DNA of 44,481 nucleotides from Nitrospirota bacterium (GTDB taxonomy: Bacteria > Nitrospirota > Thermodesulfovibrionia > Thermodesulfovibrionales > Dissulfurispiraceae), in contig JBFMHE010000001.1 of assembly GCA_040752355.1 (NCBI GenBank), positions 416,150 through 460,630 of the forward strand. Direction: 5' to 3'. Numbering within the stretch: the stretch's first letter is position 1; every line of letters starts with the position of its first letter. The translations under genes and the position numbers were made by a program. This document shows, piece after piece, positions 3,493 to 41,241 of the stretch. The notes beneath the pieces were generated by a model. The model was not told where the DNA came from. It worked only from the letters and a program-made list of their open reading frames with translations, and made no database searches.

Positions 3493-4098
3493 CTAACAGC
3501 GCCGCCTGATTCCGTAGGCCGCTATCCCTGCCACGCCCGCTGCTACGAGAAGCAGGGTGCCCGGCTCGGGCACTGCCGTCACCGGGGTAGTAGCCGTCAG
3601 GTCATCCAGGGTGAAGGACGTTCCTGAAGGATCTCCGGCGATCACCAGCCGGGAGATACCCCCTGCAAAGGAAACGGTGAGCAGCTCGTTGGGAAAACTG
3701 CCGGTTTCTCCTGACTGGGCCATATTGCTGGAAAAGAGTGACAAGACAGTGGTTATGTCGTTGTTCATACTGTCATAGGCCGTCAGGGTCAGGGGCACAA
3801 GATAGGTGAAGTACCCGCTGACGCTCAATACCGGTGCGCTGAAAAGAAGGGTCATAGAACCGCCCTCATCAACGACGACATTGTCCCCTGAATGGGGGGG
3901 GAACTCTAATTCATTCAGTAAGCTGCCGGCGGTAAGTACCGAGGCATTGGAAAAGGTGACGCCCAGACCGCTGTACTGGGTGGTGACGAAATCCCCCTCG
4001 GTCAGGGTTTCAAAGGTAATGGTGTAGGCCCCGGAAGGAAGGGGAAAGGCAAAGCAAACAGCAAGAAATAAAATGAGGAATGTGGTTATGCGTGCCAT
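3493..4098 (-). CDS. PEP-CTERM sorting domain protein, 201 aa
   Basis: The protein has a signal peptide (residues 1-24, ending PLPSGA) and a C-terminal sorting tail. The tail has VPEPGT, a hydrophobic helix of about 17 residues and a basic end RRRC. This is the PEP-CTERM architecture recognised by exosortases at the inner membrane, followed by export or surface display. The middle (about 25-170) is beta-rich and resembles generic PEP-CTERM ectodomains; no enzyme motif is seen. An AAGGAGGTG ribosome site lies 7 bases before the ATG. Upstream lie a sigma-54 promoter and a 37-bp palindrome, so control by PrsR is likely. It is the first gene of a unit that continues into the giant PKD protein. 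The terminal cysteine is unusual for such tails. Confidence 0.9.
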   Translation of the reverse strand: MARITTFLILFLAVCFAFPLPSGAYTITFETLTEGDFVTTQYSGLGVTFSNASVLTAGSLLNELEFPPHSGDNVVVDEGGSMTLLFSAPVLSVSGYFTYLVPLTLTAYDSMNNDITTVLSLFSSNMAQSGETGSFPNELLTVSFAGGISRLVIAGDPSGTSFTLDDLTATTPVTAVPEPGTLLLVAAGVAGIAAYGIRRRC

Positions 4099-4170: not shown

Positions 4171-4187
4171 TTGCAAATCCTGTACCG
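4171..4187 (-). promoter_or_regulatory. Sigma-54 (-24/-12) promoter for the PEP-CTERM gene 3493-4098
   Basis: On the minus strand the sequence reads CGGTACAGGATTTGCAA. The GG (-24) and GC (-12) are exactly 10 bases apart and the -12 box is a full TTGCA. The consensus is TGGCACG-N4-TTGCW. It lies about 75 bases before the ATG and downstream of the palindrome at 4251-4287. Confidence 0.75.
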
Positions 4188-4250: not shown

Positions 4251-4287
4251 TGTTAAGTTTTTCGACAATTTGTCGAAAAACTTAACA
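4251..4287. promoter_or_regulatory. 37-bp perfect palindrome, predicted PrsR enhancer site (copy 1)
   Basis: Two 17-base arms, TGTTAAGTTTTTCGACA and its exact reverse complement, flank a 3-base spacer; the palindrome extends through the spacer to a single central base. The centre (4269) is 96 bases from the -12 GC at 4173, a typical place for a bacterial enhancer-binding-protein site. It shares its half-site with the elements at 35076-35113 and 41205-41241. The prsR gene is immediately adjacent. Assignment to PrsR is inference. Confidence 0.75.
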
Positions 4288-4393: not shown

Positions 4394-5749
4394 TTATGTT
4401 ATCCCGTGCTTCTTCATTATGTCGTACAGCGTCGTCCTGCTCACTCCCAGCTCATCCGATATCTTGGTGACATTGCCGTTATGCTTTTCGATAGCGGACA
4501 CGGTCATGTCCCTTTCCACCTTGTCCTTGGCCTCTTTCAGCGTCATCCGCTCCTTTGTCTGGATTTGCGGAAGGTCGCTGAACCCGAAATCGTATAGCTC
4601 GATCTTCGAAGATTCCGCGAAGAGCACGGCGCGCTGCACTCTGTTCTCGAGCTCTCTCACATTCCCGGGCCAGGTGTACGATTTCAGGAGCTCCAGTGAA
4701 GCGGCGCTGAAGCCGGTGATCTTCTTATGCGCGGCCTCGCTGAACTTGTTCAGGAACATGGTGGCCAGGGCGACCACATCATCTCCCCTCTCCCGCAGAG
4801 GCGGGAGATTGAGCATCACCACGCCGAGACGGTAGTAGAGGTCCTCCCTGAACTTTTCCTCTCTGATTGCCCTGGCGATATCGATATTGGTCGCCGCCAC
4901 GATCCTCGCGTTAACCGGGATATCCTCTCTTCCGCCGACCCTCTGGATGGTCTTGTCCTGCAGGAACCGCAGCAGCTTCACCTGGAGATTGAGCGGCATC
5001 TCGCCGACCTCGTCGAGGAAGAGCGTGCCGTCGTGGGCGTACTCCACTTTCCCGCTCGTCCTCGCGTGGGCGCCGGTGAACGCGCCCTTCTCGAAGCCGA
5101 AGAGCTCCGATTCGAGGAGGTTCTCCGGGATGGCGCCGCAATTGATCGCTACGAATTTCCCTTCTTTCCTGGCGCCGAGCGAGTGTATCGCCCGTGCAAC
5201 CAGCTCTTTCCCCGTGCCGCTTTCGCCGATGATCAGGACCGGGACGTCGGATGAGGCGATCTTCCTGATCGTTGCGAAGATCTTCTCCATGGCAGGGCAG
5301 AGCCCTATCATGCCGCTGAAGCCGCTGGCGCCCTGGCCGGATGATCGCTGCAGCTCTTTCACTTCCCGTTCGAGGTTGCGCAGATACATGGCCCTCGAGA
5401 CGATAATCTTCAGCTCCTTGAGATCGATAGGCTTCTGGTAGAAATCATACGCGCCGAGCTGAATGGCGCGGAGCGCGTGTTCACGCTCGTTTCGCCCCGT
5501 AACCACGATAACCTTTGTGGCAGGTTCGTGCCGGAGTATGCCTTCGAGGCAGGCGAACCCCTCTTCGGCCCCCTCCTCGTGCGGAGGCAGGCCGAGGTCG
5601 AGCAGGACCACCTGCGTCCTCAGCTTTTCGAAGAGGCTGAGCGCTTCCTGCCGGTCCTGGGCGAGATGGATCGTGTATTCCTTCTCGAGCCCCCACCGGA
5701 GCTGCTTGCGGACATCTTCGTTGTCATCGATGATCAGAAGGTCTTCCAT
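4394..5749 (-). CDS. prsR: PrsR, sigma-54-dependent PEP-CTERM response regulator, 451 aa
   Basis: Three domains follow the NtrC plan. The receiver (1-120) has acidic pocket D8/D9, phospho-acceptor D51, T84 and K106. The AAA+ sigma-54 activator domain has Walker A GESGTGKE (175-182), the sigma-54 contact loop GAFTGA (222-227) and Walker B ending LFLDE (243-247). The Fis-type helix-turn-helix is at the C-terminus (about 415-451, ELGVSRTTLYDIM). Family knowledge: this is the regulator paired with PrsK in exosortase systems and it opens sigma-54 promoters of PEP-CTERM genes. It starts 9 bases after the prsK stop, so the pair is co-transcribed. A terminator follows. The presence of a complete GAFTGA loop means it should be competent for sigma-54, which fits the promoters found nearby. 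Confidence 0.95.
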   Translation of the reverse strand: MEDLLIIDDNEDVRKQLRWGLEKEYTIHLAQDRQEALSLFEKLRTQVVLLDLGLPPHEEGAEEGFACLEGILRHEPATKVIVVTGRNEREHALRAIQLGAYDFYQKPIDLKELKIIVSRAMYLRNLEREVKELQRSSGQGASGFSGMIGLCPAMEKIFATIRKIASSDVPVLIIGESGTGKELVARAIHSLGARKEGKFVAINCGAIPENLLESELFGFEKGAFTGAHARTSGKVEYAHDGTLFLDEVGEMPLNLQVKLLRFLQDKTIQRVGGREDIPVNARIVAATNIDIARAIREEKFREDLYYRLGVVMLNLPPLRERGDDVVALATMFLNKFSEAAHKKITGFSAASLELLKSYTWPGNVRELENRVQRAVLFAESSKIELYDFGFSDLPQIQTKERMTLKEAKDKVERDMTVSAIEKHNGNVTKISDELGVSRTTLYDIMKKHGIT

Positions 5750-5758
5750 GATTCACTC

Positions 5759-7852
5759 TCATGCAATGCTGCGTTCGGCGGCCACCCCGGCCGAGCCCCT
5801 GGCGAGCGGCAGATAGACGGTAAAGACCGACCCCGCCTCCACCCTGCTCTGCACCTCCATACGGCCCTCATGGGCCTCGATGATCTTCCTGCACTGGTAC
5901 AGCCCTATGCCGAGGCCCTTCGCCTTGGTGCTTCTGAACGGCTTGAACAGGCTGGTGCTGATAAACTCTTCGGTCATGCCGCATCCGGTGTCGGCAACCC
6001 TGATATACGTCATCCCGTCGAGACAGCCGGTCTCGACCCGGATCTCCTCATCGGCAGCGATCGCGTCGGCTGCATTGAGCAGAAGATTCAGCGCCACCTT
6101 CCTGATCTCCTCCCGGTCGACCACCGTGAGCGCCGCGGCACCATGGTAGCTTATTTTCATGCCTCTTTTCAATCTCCTCACCTCTTCGACCGTCTCGGCC
6201 ACGAGGGAGGCGAGATCGACCATCTCGCTGTTGAGCATCTGCTTTTCGGGCACTCCTTTGAGCTTCTGCATCAGGTTCTTCACCCGGTTGACCGTATTGC
6301 CGACCGCTCCCAGCATATCTTTCTGGAACTCGGGATTGTCCATGTGCTCCGCAGCGTTCTCGAGCAGCAGCGAGAGGCTGTAGGAGAGGTTCTTGAGATC
6401 GTGCACGATGAAGGACGAGATCCTCGCCACCGCAGCCATCTCCCGCGTCTCGACCAGCTCCTCCGAGAGCTGGAAGTTGGCGAGGGAGAGCGCCGCCTGG
6501 CGCGCGATGGTCTTCATAAGATCGTAGTCCTCGAAGATGAGCTCCTCGGGAGAGAGCTGGCCGCCCAGGAGGACCACGCCGACGATATGGTCGGTGGCTA
6601 TGAGCGGGACGACGAATATCGCATGCACTGCTTCGAGGGGGACACGGTCATGACCGGTCAATGCATACTCTGCGCCCTTCAGATCGAGCACCCGGTGGCG
6701 CTCGAGAAAGTAGGATTCGAGCCCCGGTGAAAAGCGGAGCTCTTTCTCGCCGTCTCTCATCTCCTGGTTTGCGGCAAGGCGGTAGCAGTTCTTTTCCCGT
6801 TCAAAAAGATAGAGTGACGCCCCTTTCAGGCCGAAGGTCTCGCGGTACATCGTCAGCGTCATCTGCCCCACATCGGCGAGCGACCGGCACGAGGCGAGCC
6901 TGCCCGTGAACCTGAGCCACACCTCCCGGTAGTCATGCTTCTGCGCATAGAAGTTCTTGTTGACGAAGACCTTGACCCTCCTCCGGAACTGCTCGGAGAC
7001 CAGAAGCGTCACTATGAACATTCCCGCTATGAAGGCTATGAAGAGGAGCGCATTCTTCTCGAAGGAGTCGCCGAAATATTTCATTCCCTCGCCGATCAAC
7101 CCGAGAGAAAGGAGATAGACTCCCACGAATACGAGCACGAGAGAGCGATAAAGGATATAGCGCGATACGACCACCTGGGAGTCGCCCGAGCTCCGCACCT
7201 TCGAATAGCCGATAAGTACCGCCGCGACAATGAAAATGCCCGATCGTACGGGAACCAGGTTCATGTTGACCGTCCGGTAGAGCAGGCCCTGGCTGAAGTA
7301 GAAGATGAGCACCGCCATGATGCCCGCCAGCCCGATGAACTCGAACTTCATGCGCCACCGGGCAGCGCCGCGGGTAGCGGAGAAGATGCTCTCGAGCCGC
7401 ACCAGGGCTGCAATACAGCAGACCATGAGGCCGAGGTAAAACCAGTAACCGACCGGACCGAGAAAGAGCATCCGCTCCGTGGCGAAATCAGGGGCATAGA
7501 AGAAGTCGGCCGCCGGGAAAAGGGCAACGGTTGCGGGAAACAGGAAGGCACTGGAAAAAAGGACCGGCTGCCAGATGCGTCTCGTCGGGGCGTATCCATC
7601 AAGGACGTAGCCGCGCGTGAGGAGCAGAAAGGCGAGAGGCAGCAGTGATTCCAGGAAGAGGCCGGCGCCCCTGCCGCTGAGGGGGTCGATCACGTGCTCC
7701 AGGGAAAGGCGGTCTACCGCCTCTACTGCTCCCAGGAGAAGGAGTGCTATGGGCAGGGAAACACCTGCCGGAGCTCGCCGTCTCGCCAGGATCAGCACGG
7801 CTGCAGCGATAAGCAGCAGCGAGGCCGCGATGGATATGATCATTCCTGCCAT
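5759..7852 (-). CDS. prsK: PrsK, membrane histidine kinase of the PEP-CTERM system, 697 aa
   Basis: The first ~290 residues hold about eight to ten hydrophobic membrane segments. A GAF-like domain follows (about 315-470), then the kinase core. The phospho-acceptor His lies in FIVHDLKNLSYSL. The ATP-binding domain shows the N box (LNLLLNAADAI), G1 (VADTGCGMTEEF) and G2 (KGLGIGLY). This is the PrsK architecture: a multi-pass sensor without an obvious periplasmic domain, plus a GAF domain, ending in HATPase_c. It would phosphorylate D51 of PrsR, encoded 9 bases downstream. The signal sensed is unknown. It lies 52 bases after epsI, so it is likely part of the exosortase transcript. Confidence 0.95.
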   Translation of the reverse strand: MAGMIISIAASLLLIAAAVLILARRRAPAGVSLPIALLLLGAVEAVDRLSLEHVIDPLSGRGAGLFLESLLPLAFLLLTRGYVLDGYAPTRRIWQPVLFSSAFLFPATVALFPAADFFYAPDFATERMLFLGPVGYWFYLGLMVCCIAALVRLESIFSATRGAARWRMKFEFIGLAGIMAVLIFYFSQGLLYRTVNMNLVPVRSGIFIVAAVLIGYSKVRSSGDSQVVVSRYILYRSLVLVFVGVYLLSLGLIGEGMKYFGDSFEKNALLFIAFIAGMFIVTLLVSEQFRRRVKVFVNKNFYAQKHDYREVWLRFTGRLASCRSLADVGQMTLTMYRETFGLKGASLYLFEREKNCYRLAANQEMRDGEKELRFSPGLESYFLERHRVLDLKGAEYALTGHDRVPLEAVHAIFVVPLIATDHIVGVVLLGGQLSPEELIFEDYDLMKTIARQAALSLANFQLSEELVETREMAAVARISSFIVHDLKNLSYSLSLLLENAAEHMDNPEFQKDMLGAVGNTVNRVKNLMQKLKGVPEKQMLNSEMVDLASLVAETVEEVRRLKRGMKISYHGAAALTVVDREEIRKVALNLLLNAADAIAADEEIRVETGCLDGMTYIRVADTGCGMTEEFISTSLFKPFRSTKAKGLGIGLYQCRKIIEAHEGRMEVQSRVEAGSVFTVYLPLARGSAGVAAERSIA

Positions 7853-31892: not shown

Positions 31893-34673
31893 TCAGGGGC
31901 GTTTCGTGCCCCTCAACTGCGAGAGCGCCTGGGCCGCTTCCTTCGCCTCCGGGAAGTCCCCTGCCCGGAGCGCCCGCTGGAGCGTATCCGCCGCCTTTGC
32001 GGCATCGCCCGTTTCCTTGTAGGCGAGCGCAAGGTGATAGCTCACCGACGGATTGTCCGGAAGCTGCTCCGAGGCCCGCTTGAGCACTTTCAGCGCATCC
32101 TCTTTCCTGCCGTTTTTAAGAAACACGAAGCCCAGGGTGTCCAGGATTTCGGGACGGTCGGGCGCCAGCTTATACGCCGTTACCGCAAGCTCGAGGGCCT
32201 TCTCCTTGCTCCCGTATCCCTGCGTATAAAGGTAGGCGAGGTTGTTCAATGCCGGGAGGTAATTCTCCGCTTTCGCAAGCACCTCCTGGTATTTCTTCAC
32301 CGCCTCGGCCTTCTTGTTCGTCACCTCGAGGACCGCTCCCTGGCCGAAGAGCGCCTGCACATCCCGGGGATGGTGCCGCTCGATCTCCCGGTAGGTGCTC
32401 ATCGCGAGCGTATAGTCTTTTTTCCGGGTATAGAGCGAGCCCAGTTTCAGTGAAGCGGCGAGGTCTTTCGGCTCCGTCTGCAGTCCTCTCTTGAGGCTTT
32501 CTATCGCCTTGTCGATCTTGTTCCGGTTCTCATAAACGGAGGCGAGGACCACATAGCCCGCTGCAGAGCGGGGTCTGTAATCGATTATCTTCTGGGCGGC
32601 CTCGGCAGCGCGCGCCTCGTCTCCCATGAGCGCATAGAGCATCGCCAGCTCGGCCCTCATCCCCACATTGTCGGGCTTCTCCGCAAGCTTCTTATCCAGG
32701 AGTCTTACTGCCGGCGCATAGTCTTTCATGGCAACGTAGGTGGCGACCAGGAGCGGCACCCCTCGTTCCGGACTCGCAGCCTCGATCTGCTGGAATGCCG
32801 ACAGCGCCTCCTTGTATCTCTTTGCGCCGGCATAAACCCTCCCTTTTGCTTCGAGGGCCTCGAGCGCCTTGGGATGCGCCCGATGCATCTCATCGAGTAT
32901 CCCTGCCGCCTTATCGACCTCTTTCTTCTTGGCATGATACTGGGCGAGGGCCAGAAAGGCTGCCGGACTCTGCGCCTCCTTCGCTTTCGTATAGAACGCC
33001 AGGGCATCGCCCTCCTTGCCCTGGAGCTCAAGCGTTGCCGCGGAGCCTAACAGGGCGGCGAGATTCTTCGGATCCCTCTGCAGTACCGCACGGTATTCCT
33101 CCATCGCCTTGGCATACTCACCCCTGGCCGTGTAGTATGTCGCCAGGTTGAAGTAGGGAGGGAAATAGGCGGGGTTGCTCTCCTTTGCCTTGCGCAGGTA
33201 TCCCAGCACATCGGCATACTTCTTCTCTCTCAGGAGGACCGCGGCTATGCTGTTGTAGACGACGGCGTCCGTGTCTTTGCCGGTAAGCCCTTCCTTGAGA
33301 AGCTCGGTTGCTCTGCCGTAGTTCTTCTGCTTGACATAGTAAGAGGCCAGAAGAAAGCGGGTGTTGAGGACATCAGGGGCGACCTTCACGGCTGTCTTGA
33401 GCTCGGACTCGGCCTCCTTCAGGTTGCCCATGCTGAAGTTGAAGATGCCCTTCTTGAGATGGGCGTCAACGAGCTTCGGATCGATGTCGATCGCCGTATT
33501 GAGCTCGCGCATCGCCTCGTCATGCATTCCCTTCATAATATAGGCGCTGCCGAGCATATTGTGAGCCAGCGCGTTCTGGGAGTCCATCTCCAGGACCTTT
33601 TTTATCTCTGCCACCGCGGTGTCGGTCCTGTTCTGCCTCATGAGCAGCATGGCAACCAGCAGGCGCACCTGGTGGAAGGACGGATGGTGGTCGAGTATCC
33701 GTTTGAACTGCGTCAACGCGACCTCATACTCGCCCAGGTTATAATGGCTGAGACCGAGGAAATAGTAGGCGAACAGGTTGGCCTGGAGAGCAATGCCTCT
33801 CTGGAGCTCCGCTATGGCCTCACGATAATTCCGTTTATAGTAATAGACTATTCCCTTGAGCGTGCTCCCTTCCGCTTTTTTAGGGAACCTCTTGAGCAGG
33901 TCGTCGGCTATTGTCCCCGCCTTGTCGAGCTCGCCTCTCTCGACATGGATGATGCCCCTGCGATAAGGAGCGTTACTGTCCTGCGGGTTGATGTCCTCGA
34001 TCTTCTTGTAGAGCTCGATCGCACGATCGCTCCGCTTCGCCTTGAGCTCGACGCCGGCGAGGAGGTAGTACGCTTTGGCGTTCTTCTGGTCTTTGCCGAT
34101 AATCTCCTCTAGAATCTTCTGCGCCTGGTCGGCCCTCCCGTCCGCTATGTACGCCTGCGCCAGCCCGAACCTGGCCGATACCCGTTCGGGATCGGCCTTC
34201 ACCACCCGGAGAAAATGCCTCTCTGCTTCCCCGGCATCACCCTTCACAACGGAGGCATAGCCGAGAAGCTCCGTTGCATCAGGGTTGTCCGGGTGCGCCG
34301 CAAGATAGGCGTTCGCCTCTTTCATCGCTTCGTCGGGCTTGTTTCCATCGAGGTGGACGCGCGCCATCTCGAGCTGGAGCTCGGTGCGCGAAGGGTCCAT
34401 CCTCATCGCCTTCTGCAGCTCCCGCTCGGCCTGTTCGAGCTTGCCGCTCGCCCGGTACGCCTTCGCCAGCTGGTAGCGGGCATCGAAGAAGTTCTGGTCT
34501 TTCTCGAGGGCGCTCTTGAGGGCTACGATAGCCCCCGACGGGTTTCCCTCCTTCATGAGCTTGACCGACTCGCTGAGCAGCTCCTCTTTGGTCTTGCCCT
34601 GGCAAGAGATGAGCAGGGAGACGAGGAACAATGCCGAGAATCCCTTAGCGACAGCACGCAATAGCTTAGCCAT
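31893..34673 (-). CDS. prsT: PrsT, TPR-repeat lipoprotein of the PEP-CTERM system, 926 aa
   Basis: Start placed at ATG 34673, 7 bases after GAGGAG; the longer frame from 34688 would have its first codons overlapping that ribosome site. A lipoprotein signal ends in LLISC with C24 as the lipidated residue. The rest is roughly two dozen tetratricopeptide repeats (typical unit ANPDATELLGYA or AYYLLAGVELKAKRSDRAIE). This is the PrsT family (TIGR02917). Such proteins act as periplasmic or outer-membrane scaffolds for EPS export or PEP-CTERM protein handling. It is first in the EPS operon and its position upstream of the EpsB-like gene is standard for XrtA loci. Confidence 0.93.
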   Translation of the reverse strand: MAKLLRAVAKGFSALFLVSLLISCQGKTKEELLSESVKLMKEGNPSGAIVALKSALEKDQNFFDARYQLAKAYRASGKLEQAERELQKAMRMDPSRTELQLEMARVHLDGNKPDEAMKEANAYLAAHPDNPDATELLGYASVVKGDAGEAERHFLRVVKADPERVSARFGLAQAYIADGRADQAQKILEEIIGKDQKNAKAYYLLAGVELKAKRSDRAIELYKKIEDINPQDSNAPYRRGIIHVERGELDKAGTIADDLLKRFPKKAEGSTLKGIVYYYKRNYREAIAELQRGIALQANLFAYYFLGLSHYNLGEYEVALTQFKRILDHHPSFHQVRLLVAMLLMRQNRTDTAVAEIKKVLEMDSQNALAHNMLGSAYIMKGMHDEAMRELNTAIDIDPKLVDAHLKKGIFNFSMGNLKEAESELKTAVKVAPDVLNTRFLLASYYVKQKNYGRATELLKEGLTGKDTDAVVYNSIAAVLLREKKYADVLGYLRKAKESNPAYFPPYFNLATYYTARGEYAKAMEEYRAVLQRDPKNLAALLGSAATLELQGKEGDALAFYTKAKEAQSPAAFLALAQYHAKKKEVDKAAGILDEMHRAHPKALEALEAKGRVYAGAKRYKEALSAFQQIEAASPERGVPLLVATYVAMKDYAPAVRLLDKKLAEKPDNVGMRAELAMLYALMGDEARAAEAAQKIIDYRPRSAAGYVVLASVYENRNKIDKAIESLKRGLQTEPKDLAASLKLGSLYTRKKDYTLAMSTYREIERHHPRDVQALFGQGAVLEVTNKKAEAVKKYQEVLAKAENYLPALNNLAYLYTQGYGSKEKALELAVTAYKLAPDRPEILDTLGFVFLKNGRKEDALKVLKRASEQLPDNPSVSYHLALAYKETGDAAKAADTLQRALRAGDFPEAKEAAQALSQLRGTKRP

Positions 34674-35075
34674 TCGATAACTCCTCATATTAGGATTTCA
34701 TTTGTTATTGAGAAATAAAGACCACAGCGAGAATTCCGGCAATGCTCCGCCCTCTCAGTTACAGGCTCAATAGCTGAGAAGATTGCCTATACCTGAAATA
34801 ACAGGATTAGAGATTGTTACAGCAAATTAAAGACAAATACTTACCTATTAATGCCTATAAATTTTATAGAATCGTATCCGTTAAAATCAAGGCTTGCAGC
34901 ATACGGGACACCTCTCCAAGAAGGGGCTTATTAACAAACGCTGCTCTTATTTAATCGACCGGATCCGGCTCTACTTTAGCAGCGAGGGGATCGAACGACC
35001 CTATGCGGAGGAGGAGAGAGACCTCATTAAGCTCCGAGCATTGCGCATGCGCTTACAGCGGAGAGCAGTGTGAAG
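34674..35075. other. Intergenic region upstream of prsT
   Basis: AT-rich stretch of about 400 bases with no gene. I see one sigma-70-like promoter candidate (34863-34890) and one weak -24/-12-like match on the minus strand (34739-34754, AGGGCGGAGCATTGCC). No RNA gene was recognised. Confidence 0.6.
34863..34890 (-). promoter_or_regulatory. Possible sigma-70 promoter for the EPS operon
   Basis: Minus strand: TTGATT (-35), 16-base spacer, TATAAA (-10). It lies about 190 bases before the prsT start. The spacer is one base short of optimum and both boxes are imperfect. Confidence 0.3.
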
Positions 35076-35113
35076 TGTCAAGTTTTCTGACAGTGTTGTC
35101 GAAAAACTTTACA
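35076..35113. promoter_or_regulatory. 38-bp imperfect palindrome, predicted PrsR enhancer site (copy 2)
   Basis: Left half TGTCAAGTTTTCTGACA and right half (reverse complement) TGTAAAGTTTTTCGACA, separated by GTGT. The half-site is the same as in copies 1 and 3. It lies between prsT (minus) and the PilZ gene (plus), about 200 bases upstream of the sigma-54 promoter at 35284-35299. Confidence 0.65.
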
Positions 35114-35283
35114 CCACGGAGCCGATCAGCTTACAGAGCCATTGATCAAAAGCATGCAGCGCCTCCTTATCGCCGCCGTAAGCAGATCGTTCCGCCTGAT
35201 TACTAAGGATGAAGCATTGACTTTTCACGATTTTCCCTCTCCTTCGCATAGTACTGCCGAGAGCCCGTGTTTTCCCTGGACAA

Positions 35284-35299
35284 TGGCATAACAATTGCT
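35284..35299 (+). promoter_or_regulatory. Sigma-54 promoter for the PilZ gene
   Basis: TGGCATAACAATTGCT has GG and GC exactly 10 bases apart (35285-35286 and 35297-35298) and a full TTGCT -12 box. The predicted start lies near 35310, about 140 bases before the PilZ start codon. Confidence 0.7.
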
Positions 35300-35449
35300 T
35301 GATATTCCTAATGTTTTGTAGAGCTCTCGGAAATTAGCGCTATGGTGAGCCCTCCCCGGCTGTCATAGATACTTTTCCAAGGGGGCAGCCGGAGCAGAGT
35401 AGAGAGCCATAAGAAACCAATCATAGACGTTGAGAAAAGGGGGCATTCC

Positions 35450-35791
35450 TTGCAGGATGGTCCGCAATATGCCGGGGCGGAGCGGAGAGAGCACCGGAGG
35501 GAGCATACTTCCGGTTCGGTCTCTATCACGGCATATTTCGGCAATAGCGAGCACCGCAGGGAGCAGCCTCGAGATTACAAGGACTACTATAATAATTCGA
35601 AGTACTATCGGGCGATTACCGGTACGGTCGACCTTATCGATATCAGTTACAGCGGCGTGCGCGTAAAAACATCCCTTCCCCTGGAGCGCGACTGCATTGT
35701 CGAGCTGAACAGTGAGGGAAAGCAGATGGCGCTCGTGCGGTGGATAAGAAGAGGCAGCCAGTTCTACCACGCAGGACTGATGTACCTCTAA
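35450..35791 (+). CDS. PilZ-domain protein (predicted cyclic-di-GMP receptor), 113 aa
   Basis: The short protein carries both PilZ ligand motifs: an arginine cluster ERREHRRE near residues 11-18 (RxxxR) and D-x-S-x-x-G in DISYSGVRV. The rest forms the PilZ beta barrel (VRWIRRGSQFYHAGLMYL). The start is TTG at 35450, 6 bases after AAGGGGG; no ATG or GTG is available in frame upstream. Upstream lie a sigma-54 promoter and a PrsR-type palindrome. It is the only gene on this transcript and is convergent with the HDOD gene, 10 bases apart. It may couple cyclic-di-GMP to EPS output. Confidence 0.78.
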   Translation: MQDGPQYAGAERREHRREHTSGSVSITAYFGNSEHRREQPRDYKDYYNNSKYYRAITGTVDLIDISYSGVRVKTSLPLERDCIVELNSEGKQMALVRWIRRGSQFYHAGLMYL

Positions 35792-35801
35792 GCCCGCAGT
35801 A

Positions 35802-36632
35802 TCACTCCATGAGATGCTCCCGCTGTTTGTTGTAGAGCGCTGAGAACTCTCTCTGCATTTCGCGCATTCTTTCTTTTGTGAGCCCCAGCCCGGTCTCCCG
35901 GGAGGAGGGAGTGCTCCGCGGCCCGATACCGAGCTGAAGACAGAGCGCGTCGGCAGCGGCAACCACGGCACAGAGGTCTCTATGCGTCTCCGCGGCAAAT
36001 CCCGGAAAATGATGCGTATGGTGCCGCTCGATGACGACCTCGAGCAGGGGAGGTAAATTCCATAGGCGGGCGACGACACCGCCAACGCTGCAATGGTCAT
36101 AACCGAGCACTGCCGTTTCGGCCTCGCTGAATGAGTAACCGCCGCGTCCCGTCATCTCGACGATATCGGCGTAGGTCCCGGGAATACTGCGGTTCAGCAG
36201 CGCCTTGCCTATATCATGCAGCAATCCCGCTGCCAGGGCGTCTTCGGGCTTCGCCATTCCCGTCTCCCCGGCGAGGAGTGATGCTGCAAGCGAGACGCCG
36301 AGACTATGGTCCCAGAGAGAGGAGTCAAAGGGATCGTTTTTTCGGTAGAGATCGCGCATTGCGGCGCCGGTAACGAGGGAGATCATCGCATCGAACCCGA
36401 TGAGACTGACAGCAGCGGCAATACTGCTGATATGCTGCCCCCGGTAAAAAGGGGAGTTGGCGATCCTCAGAACCCGGGCGGCAAATGCCTGGTCCCCTGA
36501 GATCGTCGCTTCCAGTTCTCCCATAGAGGTATTTTCCTTCCGGGCAAGCTGCAGGACGCGCAGGGCGATGGGGGGCAGGCTCGGTATATCTATGGTATCG
36601 AGAATAAGCCTCTCGAGGTCATCATTGTTCAT
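35802..36632 (-). CDS. HDOD-domain protein, about 276 aa
   Basis: The HDOD fold is recognisable from IPSLPPIALRVLQLARKE and GDQAFAARVLRIANSPFYRG, then LHDIGKALLNR, which keeps the HD pair although HDOD proteins usually lack phosphodiesterase activity. A histidine-rich helix ERHHTHHF follows. Start placed at ATG 36632, 10 bases after the acyltransferase stop; a TTG at 36671 would overlap that gene. HDOD proteins act in signalling, often with cyclic-di-GMP proteins. Here the output partner is unknown. It is probably the second gene of the sigma-54 unit starting with the acyltransferase. Confidence 0.85.
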   Translation of the reverse strand: MNNDDLERLILDTIDIPSLPPIALRVLQLARKENTSMGELEATISGDQAFAARVLRIANSPFYRGQHISSIAAAVSLIGFDAMISLVTGAAMRDLYRKNDPFDSSLWDHSLGVSLAASLLAGETGMAKPEDALAAGLLHDIGKALLNRSIPGTYADIVEMTGRGGYSFSEAETAVLGYDHCSVGGVVARLWNLPPLLEVVIERHHTHHFPGFAAETHRDLCAVVAAADALCLQLGIGPRSTPSSRETGLGLTKERMREMQREFSALYNKQREHLME

Positions 36633-36642
36633 GATGCCTGCT

Positions 36643-37338
36643 TTACACACCGCATCCTGCGGCTTCGACAAATTCTTTGTACAGTTCGGGATTATTCATC
36701 GAGAGCCTCTTCTCGACATCCTCTATGCAGAGAATATAAGGGGCCCTGAGGCCATGATACTCCACATCGGGACCGATAGGAACGAAATCGAACCCGATAC
36801 GCTGCAACAAGACATGAAGGGCCTTTGCCATGACGGCATACCAATGCGTCAACCCGAGCCGCTTGCTCTCGGCATACATGGCCTTGAAGAGGCCTATAAT
36901 GATCTCCTGGCGCTTTCTTCGCGAATTGGGCACGTCCTCCTGCGAGACATCCTGTCCTTCGCCGGGACTTGCGCTATAGAGAAGGCGGTCAACCGCCCTC
37001 TTCCGGTATTCCTTGCTGATCGCCAGCCTCGAGATCTCGGCAATCCTCTCCGGCCCTATCGCGGAGCAGTCGGCGGTGATCGTACAATGCTTCTCGATGG
37101 GAAACCCCTCGGGTGAATGGAGAATCAGACGGATAGTGCCGAGCAGCTGCCCATAGCGGGAGGCCATGAAATGGACCGAATACTTATCAAAGGCATCGGT
37201 CTCTATTCCCTCCGGGTGATCGTCGGGATGTTCGAAACCCCACTCGTCGACATACACCTTGTACCGCAGCGTGTAAATATCCTGCAGCTCAGCTACACTA
37301 GAAACCTTCGCAAACTCAAAGCCCCAGATATTTTCCAT
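36643..37338 (-). CDS. PEP-CTERM/exosortase system-associated acyltransferase (N-acyl amino acid synthase-like), 231 aa
   Basis: GNAT-like fold related to autoinducer synthases. Key segments are LRYKVYVDEWGFEHPDDHPE, FMASRYGQLLGTIRLIL and AEISRLAISKEYRKR, which match the exosortase-associated acyltransferase family TIGR03694. The product is expected to be an N-acyl amino acid or a similar small lipid; the real substrate is unknown. Upstream is a strong sigma-54 promoter at 37420-37435, so it is likely in the same nitrogen-sigma regulon although no palindrome was found. HDOD follows 10 bases later. Confidence 0.87.
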   Translation of the reverse strand: MENIWGFEFAKVSSVAELQDIYTLRYKVYVDEWGFEHPDDHPEGIETDAFDKYSVHFMASRYGQLLGTIRLILHSPEGFPIEKHCTITADCSAIGPERIAEISRLAISKEYRKRAVDRLLYSASPGEGQDVSQEDVPNSRRKRQEIIIGLFKAMYAESKRLGLTHWYAVMAKALHVLLQRIGFDFVPIGPDVEYHGLRAPYILCIEDVEKRLSMNNPELYKEFVEAAGCGV

Positions 37339-40171: not shown

Positions 40172-41020
40172 TTATCTCTTCCTGTTCCTGTAGCCCAGTC
40201 CTGCGAGACCGAGAAGTCCTGCGCCGAGGAGCACGATCGTGCCGGGCTCGGGAACGGCATACGCCGTCACCGGATCGTCACTGTTCGTGGTCCATCCTTC
40301 GGCAGGGAAGCCGAGGCGCGGGAAGCTGCTGTTGGAGAACAGATCTGCTAATCCGCTCAAGAGCCAATCGCTATCGAACGTAGAGGCGAAATCGCCCGAC
40401 CCCGGGATGATGCTCCAGTACGCTTTCCCGTCACCGGTGAACGGATTCGTTGAAGAAAACGTTCCGCTCAGCGTAGTTGTCGAATCGCCCTGGTTAAACA
40501 GGATGCCGGGTACGGCAAGGGCGCTGAAGAAGGAGCTCCCCACCGTCGTGTTCGTGAACTTCGGCAGGCCGTCGACACCGATGGATAAGTTGTTCATCGG
40601 ATTGTTGTCATTGTCGGGGTCTGCACTGAACGTCTGTGAGGAACTATAGTACATATCGAGCCTGCCCCCGGTCGCGTCAATCTGCAATGCCGGAAGAGCA
40701 CCGACATTTTTCCATACATCGAACCCGTAAAATATGCCGGTTATCTGCCCGCCGTCATTTTCAGACCAGATCTGTCCGTTCAGACCCTGTACAGAAGTGA
40801 CCTTGAGGATACCGTAGTTGTCGCCCATGTACACTGACTGATTTCCGCTGGTGAGGGTAAGGCCGGTCCCACGGTTCGTGTTATTGACTATGTTCTCCCA
40901 GTTTTCATACTTGATCGAAATCGGTCCTGCATAGCCGTCCAGCGAGAAAGCGAAGGCTCCGGATGCCAGGAGCACCACGCACGCGCCCACCGTAAGCACA
41001 AAAGACATTAACTTTTTCAT
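40172..41020 (-). CDS. PEP-CTERM sorting domain protein, 282 aa
   Basis: The start is ATG 41020 (MKKLMSFVLT), 6 bases after AAGGAGGTG; a longer frame from 41074 exists but lacks a ribosome site. Signal peptide about 1-25 (ending GAFAF). The ectodomain is rich in Gly, Ser, Asn and Thr with beta strands. The sorting tail is AVPEPGTIVLLGAGLLGLAG then basic YRNRKR. No enzymatic motif. A perfect sigma-54 promoter and a 37-bp palindrome lie upstream, so it is a strong candidate for PrsR control. Divergent from a second PEP-CTERM gene. Confidence 0.92.
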   Translation of the reverse strand: MKKLMSFVLTVGACVVLLASGAFAFSLDGYAGPISIKYENWENIVNNTNRGTGLTLTSGNQSVYMGDNYGILKVTSVQGLNGQIWSENDGGQITGIFYGFDVWKNVGALPALQIDATGGRLDMYYSSSQTFSADPDNDNNPMNNLSIGVDGLPKFTNTTVGSSFFSALAVPGILFNQGDSTTTLSGTFSSTNPFTGDGKAYWSIIPGSGDFASTFDSDWLLSGLADLFSNSSFPRLGFPAEGWTTNSDDPVTAYAVPEPGTIVLLGAGLLGLAGLGYRNRKR

Positions 41021-41124
41021 TCCTTTCACCTCCTTTTTATTGTGACTAGACCTGCTAACTAGGATATTTTCCATTTCTATTGCCCCCTTTCGGTTTTCGT
41101 GAGCGAACTATGATGTCTCATAGT

Positions 41125-41141
41125 TTGCAATCCGCGTGCCA
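41125..41141 (-). promoter_or_regulatory. Consensus sigma-54 promoter for PEP-CTERM gene 40172-41020
   Basis: Minus strand TGGCACGCGGATTGCAA matches TGGCACG-N4-TTGCA at every conserved position. The -12 GC (41127-41128) is 96 bases from the centre of the palindrome at 41205-41241. Confidence 0.9.
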
Positions 41142-41204: not shown

Positions 41205-41241
41205 TGTTAAGTTTTCCGACAAAACGTCGGGAAACTTAACA
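41205..41241. promoter_or_regulatory. 37-bp palindrome, predicted PrsR enhancer site (copy 3), shared by two divergent genes
   Basis: Half-sites TGTTAAGTTTTCCGACA and, in reverse complement, TGTTAAGTTTCCCGACG are separated by AAA. It has the same 17+3+17 layout as copy 1. One site lies between divergent PEP-CTERM genes, each with its own sigma-54 promoter. Confidence 0.78.

Follow-up and report, generated by a model that had tools for sequence, protein, structure and literature searches.

A PilZ-type gene as a predicted target of the PrsK-PrsR/sigma-54 system at a PEP-CTERM exopolysaccharide locus in Nitrospirota

The stretch of DNA that was analysed (the window) comprises 44 kb of the 3.57-Mb home genome (G000, contig C1) and contains a PEP-CTERM/exosortase exopolysaccharide (EPS) locus encoding prsR, prsK, EpsI, an exosortase, a CAAX-type protease, glycosyltransferases, a tyrosine autokinase, a chain-length protein and prsT. 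Divergent to prsT lie, in this order, a 38-bp palindrome, a sigma-54 promoter and a 113-codon PilZ-type gene. The preliminary description had reported a PilZ gene divergent from the EPS operon with a palindrome and the motif TGGCAT-N5-TTGCT before it, and all of these elements were found where it had placed them. The principal features are as follows.

4394 to 5749, minus strand: prsR, sigma-54-dependent response regulator with GAFTGA motif and Fis-type HTH (NCBIfam TIGR02915, 651 bits); its product is the predicted activator of the PilZ gene
5759 to 7852, minus strand: prsK, sensor kinase (NCBIfam TIGR02916, 524 bits)
31893 to 34688, minus strand: prsT, TPR lipoprotein (NCBIfam TIGR02917, 661 bits), first gene of the EPS/PEP-CTERM operon and divergent to the PilZ gene
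34741 to 34763, minus strand: ops-like leader element of prsT (TGTAACTGAGAGGGCGGAGCATT), separate from PilZ control
35076 to 35113, no strand: PrsR-box palindrome of two inverted 17-nt boxes (TGTCAAGTTTTCTGACA and TGTCGAAAAACTTTACA) with a 4-nt spacer, the predicted enhancer of the PilZ gene
35284 to 35299, plus strand: sigma-54 (-24/-12) promoter TGGCATAACAATTGCT, oriented towards the PilZ gene
35437 to 35443, plus strand: ribosome-binding site AAGGGGG, read from the sequence, 6 nt before the TTG start
35450 to 35791, plus strand: PilZ-type protein, 113 aa, TTG start, with R13xxxR17, D64xS66xxG69 and an insert between strands 1 and 2
35802 to 36671, minus strand: HDOD-domain protein (Pfam HDOD, 3.1e-51), convergent with the PilZ gene
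36643 to 37338, minus strand: PEP-CTERM/exosortase-associated acyltransferase (NCBIfam TIGR03694, 196 bits), likewise convergent with the PilZ gene

NCBIfam profiles identified PrsK, PrsR and PrsT in the home genome, which has one more copy each of prsR and prsT outside the window (contigs C5 and C8). Two PEP-CTERM regulatory sets per genome were likewise seen in G015. Across the family, prsR and prsT occur in one and the same set of eight genomes; in the PrsR tree the rows G000_C5 and G019_C44 are wrong-frame ORFs and are to be disregarded. The HDOD-domain protein is a possible functional partner of the PilZ protein. The position of its gene relative to the PilZ gene is kept in G013 and G023, and the window protein is 47% identical to that of G023.

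The protein of 113 aa is called PilZ on the basis of its motifs and fold; against Pfam PilZ (PF07238) it scored 14.4 bits, under the gathering cut-off of 22.5. Its AlphaFold2 model (mean pLDDT 74.5) predicts a PilZ beta-barrel that matches c-di-GMP-bound PilZ domains. The best Foldseek matches of the model were PilZ structures, namely BcsA (4p00, E 1.2e-4), MrkH, Alg44 and YcgR, and VIA gave Z 11.6 with an rmsd of 1.7 over 76 residues to 8u0i (PA0012 with c-di-GMP) and Z 7.0 to PA4608. We infer that the protein is likely to bind c-di-GMP via RxxxR and DxSxxG. The same fold could also belong to a protein-binding partner of the EPS/PEP-CTERM machinery that is not a c-di-GMP receptor, a reading that can coexist with PrsR control and to which the sub-threshold Pfam score, the long insert that separates strands 1 and 2 and the replacement of serine by cysteine in the DxSxxG motif of two relatives (G013 and G023) lend some weight. 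We regard it as unlikely, given that RxxxR is invariant in six relatives, that the window copy has the full DxSxxG motif, that PilZ domains with bound c-di-GMP head the fold matches and that the home genome encodes 28 GGDEF domains, which make the presence of c-di-GMP in the cell very likely.

The box TGTCGAAAAACTTTACA at 35097-35113 has the 17-nt length and the 3' end TTTACA of 'motif 1', the predicted PrsR site of Proteobacteria (Haft 2006, PMC1569441), a likeness that refers to length and 3' end. The window holds three palindromes of this type, the other two of which lie upstream of PEP-CTERM genes.

4251 to 4287, no strand: PrsR-box palindrome preceding PEP-CTERM gene 3493-4098, with a weak sigma-54 site 63 nt off at 4187
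41205 to 41241, no strand: PrsR-box palindrome preceding PEP-CTERM gene 40172-41074
41126 to 41141, minus strand: sigma-54 promoter TGGCACGCGGATTGCA for PEP-CTERM gene 40172-41074, with 63 nt between it and the third palindrome

For the palindrome, taken as 35075-35114, 100 dinucleotide-shuffled versions of the window gave an expectation of 0 matches. The motif TGGCAT-N5-TTGCT occurs only twice in the window, at 35284-35299 and, on the minus strand, at 41141-41126, where 0.04 occurrences were expected. When the prsT-PilZ intergenic region itself was shuffled, palindrome and promoter were each better than all 1000 shuffles, the promoter being matched in 0 of 1000.

Close relatives of the PilZ protein were found in only 5 of the 230 genomes of the class, the home genome counted; with the single PilZ protein as query, no relative was found in the collection genome_contigs. 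In four genomes from three genera, namely the home genome and G015, G023 and G013 (loci L042, L044 and L045), prsT, box pair, sigma-54 site and PilZ gene follow one another in this order; of the four loci compared, two come from one genus. The preliminary description had raised the question whether palindrome, promoter and PilZ gene stay together next to prsT in related genomes, and in these four they do. The box pair was equalled or beaten in 0, 2, 0 and 0 of 1000 shuffles at the four loci, and the PilZ-facing sigma-54 site, present also in the three relatives, in 0, 19, 6 and 7 of 1000; in G015 the box pair is degenerate (24 of 34). No box pair was found near the order's more distant PilZ proteins, which score about 30-60 bits. 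A fifth genome, G026, carries a PilZ relative and lacks both prsR and prsT, which shows that members of the PilZ gene family can occur without the PEP-CTERM regulatory system.

Since the intergenic region is common to both genes, the box pair could serve prsT, or both genes, while PilZ has an ordinary sigma-70 promoter of its own; weak matches (9 of 12) to such a promoter do exist. These matches are near chance, however (three against 1.3 expected), and none in the region makes a convincing sigma-70 promoter. Moreover, the only good sigma-54 site faces PilZ in four of four loci; on the prsT-facing strand no comparable site was found at any of them, the best scores being 0.66-0.74. In Aquincola, where RpoN controls a PEP-CTERM gene, prsT was reportedly unaffected by loss of rpoN1 (PMC9850573). 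We consider this explanation very improbable, and constitutive sigma-70 expression of the PilZ gene, which the preliminary description had named as the contrary outcome, found no support.

Genome-wide scans detected nine box sites in the home genome. Six of them precede PEP-CTERM genes or an operon containing such a gene, one precedes the gene of a 1543-aa secreted protein, and two precede PilZ proteins, for which the odds by chance are roughly 3 in 10,000 (about 10 PilZ genes in a total assumed to be 3400). The second of these PilZ targets is a 249-aa REC-PilZ response regulator on contig C4 (L046, 8004-8943) with a box pair and a sigma-54-like site (TGGACCAAAATTTGCT) upstream, which we predict to be a second PilZ protein in the PrsR regulon; no box site of the REC-PilZ type was seen in the relatives. 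A candidate at C3:140255, with 2 mismatches and inside an ORF, was taken as chance. At C8:81190 (L223, 2691-2728) the boxes upstream of a PEP-CTERM gene form a direct repeat with a 21-nt period, an arrangement that points to the single 17-nt box as the unit rather than the palindrome. Direct-repeat and inverted pairs alike place about two helix turns between the boxes.

Box-pair targets overall were almost always PEP-CTERM genes. In G013 they comprise seven PEP-CTERM genes, PilZ and one site adjoining transposase-like ORFs with no PEP-CTERM gene near; in G023 they are again PEP-CTERM genes and PilZ, and one site lies where a contig ends. In G015 the box pair and a sigma-54 site also stand before a PEP-CTERM gene directly behind which a second PilZ paralogue is encoded (L042, 11842-12165, minus strand). 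The earlier suggestion that the regulon reaches beyond the usual PEP-CTERM targets proved right, with PilZ genes among the predicted targets of the box; a few unspecified motif sites away from PEP-CTERM genes had already been mentioned by Haft 2006 (PMC1569441).

Box pair and promoter might be regulatory and yet answer to another activator, either a different NtrC-family regulator or the second PrsR (C5), so that PilZ would respond to a different signal. There are indeed two prsR copies each in G000 and G015, and 4-nt-spaced sites with 0-1 mismatch occur also in G006 and G019, each with only one prsR found. Yet the 3-nt-spaced box pair is confined to 4 of the 31 family genomes, exactly those with the prsT-PilZ locus (the reversed-pattern control was near zero), where it stands before PEP-CTERM genes, and the box agrees in length and TTTACA end with the published motif 1. 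We therefore hold another activator to be improbable and PrsR of the window to be the better candidate.

The distance between box and promoter is long at the PilZ loci, 170 nt in the window and 95, 106 and 144 nt in the relatives, compared with 44-63 nt at the other measured targets. Spacers at PEP-CTERM genes were reported as 32-92 nt (Haft 2006, PMC1569441). The distances at all four PilZ loci lie outside this range, which is descriptive and sets no defining limit. NtrC-type activators tolerate longer distances, and 95-170 nt are compatible with looping. Spacers were measured in the window and at loci L042, L044-L048, L206-L213 and L223. At targets other than prsT-linked PilZ, they cluster at 53-54 and 60-63 nt. 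These two clusters are about one helix turn apart, which suggests phase-dependent activation.

A second conserved element lies in the leader of prsT. Its sequence, TGTAACTGAGAGGGCGGAGCATT, is nearly invariant in the four prsT-PilZ loci, and its core GGCGGAGC resembles the ops element of RfaH. With up to 3 mismatches, the pattern TGTRACYGAGRGGGCGGAGCATT was found in 115 of the 230 genomes of the class, the reversed-pattern control being near zero, and a stricter pattern matched 56 stretches from the GTDB collection, almost all of which carry the label Nitrospirota. Copies of the element are recorded at loci L060-L089 and L132-L187. The first genes downstream are largely those of NDP-sugar epimerases, mannose-phosphate enzymes, and polysaccharide export, chain-length and flippase proteins. 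The home genome has three NusG paralogues besides the presumed NusG, and a UpxY-family NusG paralogue is encoded in the PEP-CTERM region of G023. The element is probably a recruitment site for RfaH/UpxY-like antiterminators (NusG paralogues) in Nitrospirota, and it is possibly more novel than the PilZ finding. Rfam gave no match to it apart from one snoRNA chance match. When the leader RNA was folded, the window copy did not surpass its shuffles (z -0.5), and the relatives gave z-scores of -1.6 to -2.6; a crude stem test on 69 copies found an 8-bp stem with 8 of 8 pairs in 33%, against 3% in shuffles. Given these folding results and the modest stem enrichment, we claim no proven RNA structure for the leader.

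Taken together, the conservation in four genomes, the restriction of the box pair to those genomes, the PEP-CTERM genes among its targets and the GAFTGA motif of PrsR make it likely, with a probability of about 0.78 judged from sequence, that the PilZ gene at 35450-35791 is part of the PEP-CTERM system's PrsK-PrsR/sigma-54 regulon. Comparison between genomes therefore supports the placement of the gene under PrsR and sigma-54 as first proposed, the site being kept with the gene and no convincing sigma-70 promoter competing with it. We infer that PrsK would activate PrsR, which would bind the inverted 17-nt box pair at 35076-35113 and, by DNA looping, drive sigma-54 polymerase at 35284-35299 to start transcription, such that the PilZ protein would be made together with PEP-CTERM surface proteins. 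The PilZ protein would then probably bind c-di-GMP and adjust EPS or PEP-CTERM output after transcription. Judged from fold and place, an effect on EPS is conceivable, at slightly below even chance. More speculatively, the PrsK-PrsR system might also install dedicated c-di-GMP receptors (the PilZ protein of the window, the REC-PilZ protein of the home genome and the second PilZ of G015) as a coherent gate, in which surface proteins would be made under PrsR, the matrix would be tuned by c-di-GMP, and the prsT-EPS operon would be elongated under separate RfaH/UpxY-like antitermination; we offer this extension with considerable reserve.

The signals and outputs of PEP-CTERM/exosortase systems are poorly understood, and a conserved PrsR-type site before a PilZ gene provides a specific link, which suggests that two control circuits of the biofilm matrix are wired together. 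In the literature searched, no paper tied the PEP-CTERM/exosortase system to PilZ or to a c-di-GMP receptor. For antitermination, the resemblance to RfaH/ops and UpxY (PMC7593976) lies in the GGCGGAGC core, the place before polysaccharide operons and the presence of NusG paralogues, whereas the prsT leader element differs in sequence, the hosts are Nitrospirota and recruitment is putative. The single-domain PilZ receptors PA0012 and PA4608 share the predicted fold and the RxxxR and DxSxxG motifs with the window protein, which differs from them in its insert between strands 1 and 2, its Pfam score under the cut-off and its predicted binding. Control of polysaccharides by BcsA and Alg44 is comparable in that both are among the top fold matches and that the PilZ domain is encoded beside the EPS locus; here, however, PilZ is a separate protein, unfused to a synthase or membrane protein. 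Also among the closest known systems is the PEP-CTERM/PrsK-PrsR/sigma-54 regulon (PMC1569441, PMC9850573), with which our locus shares prsK, prsR, prsT and exosortase, the 17-nt TTTACA box, the -24/-12 promoter and PEP-CTERM targets with spacers of 51-63 nt. In contrast to the published regulon of Proteobacteria, the boxes in Nitrospirota are usually inverted pairs and a PilZ gene is a conserved target with a spacer of 95-170 nt. Our analysis carries the PrsR box, described for Proteobacteria (Haft 2006), over to Nitrospirota.
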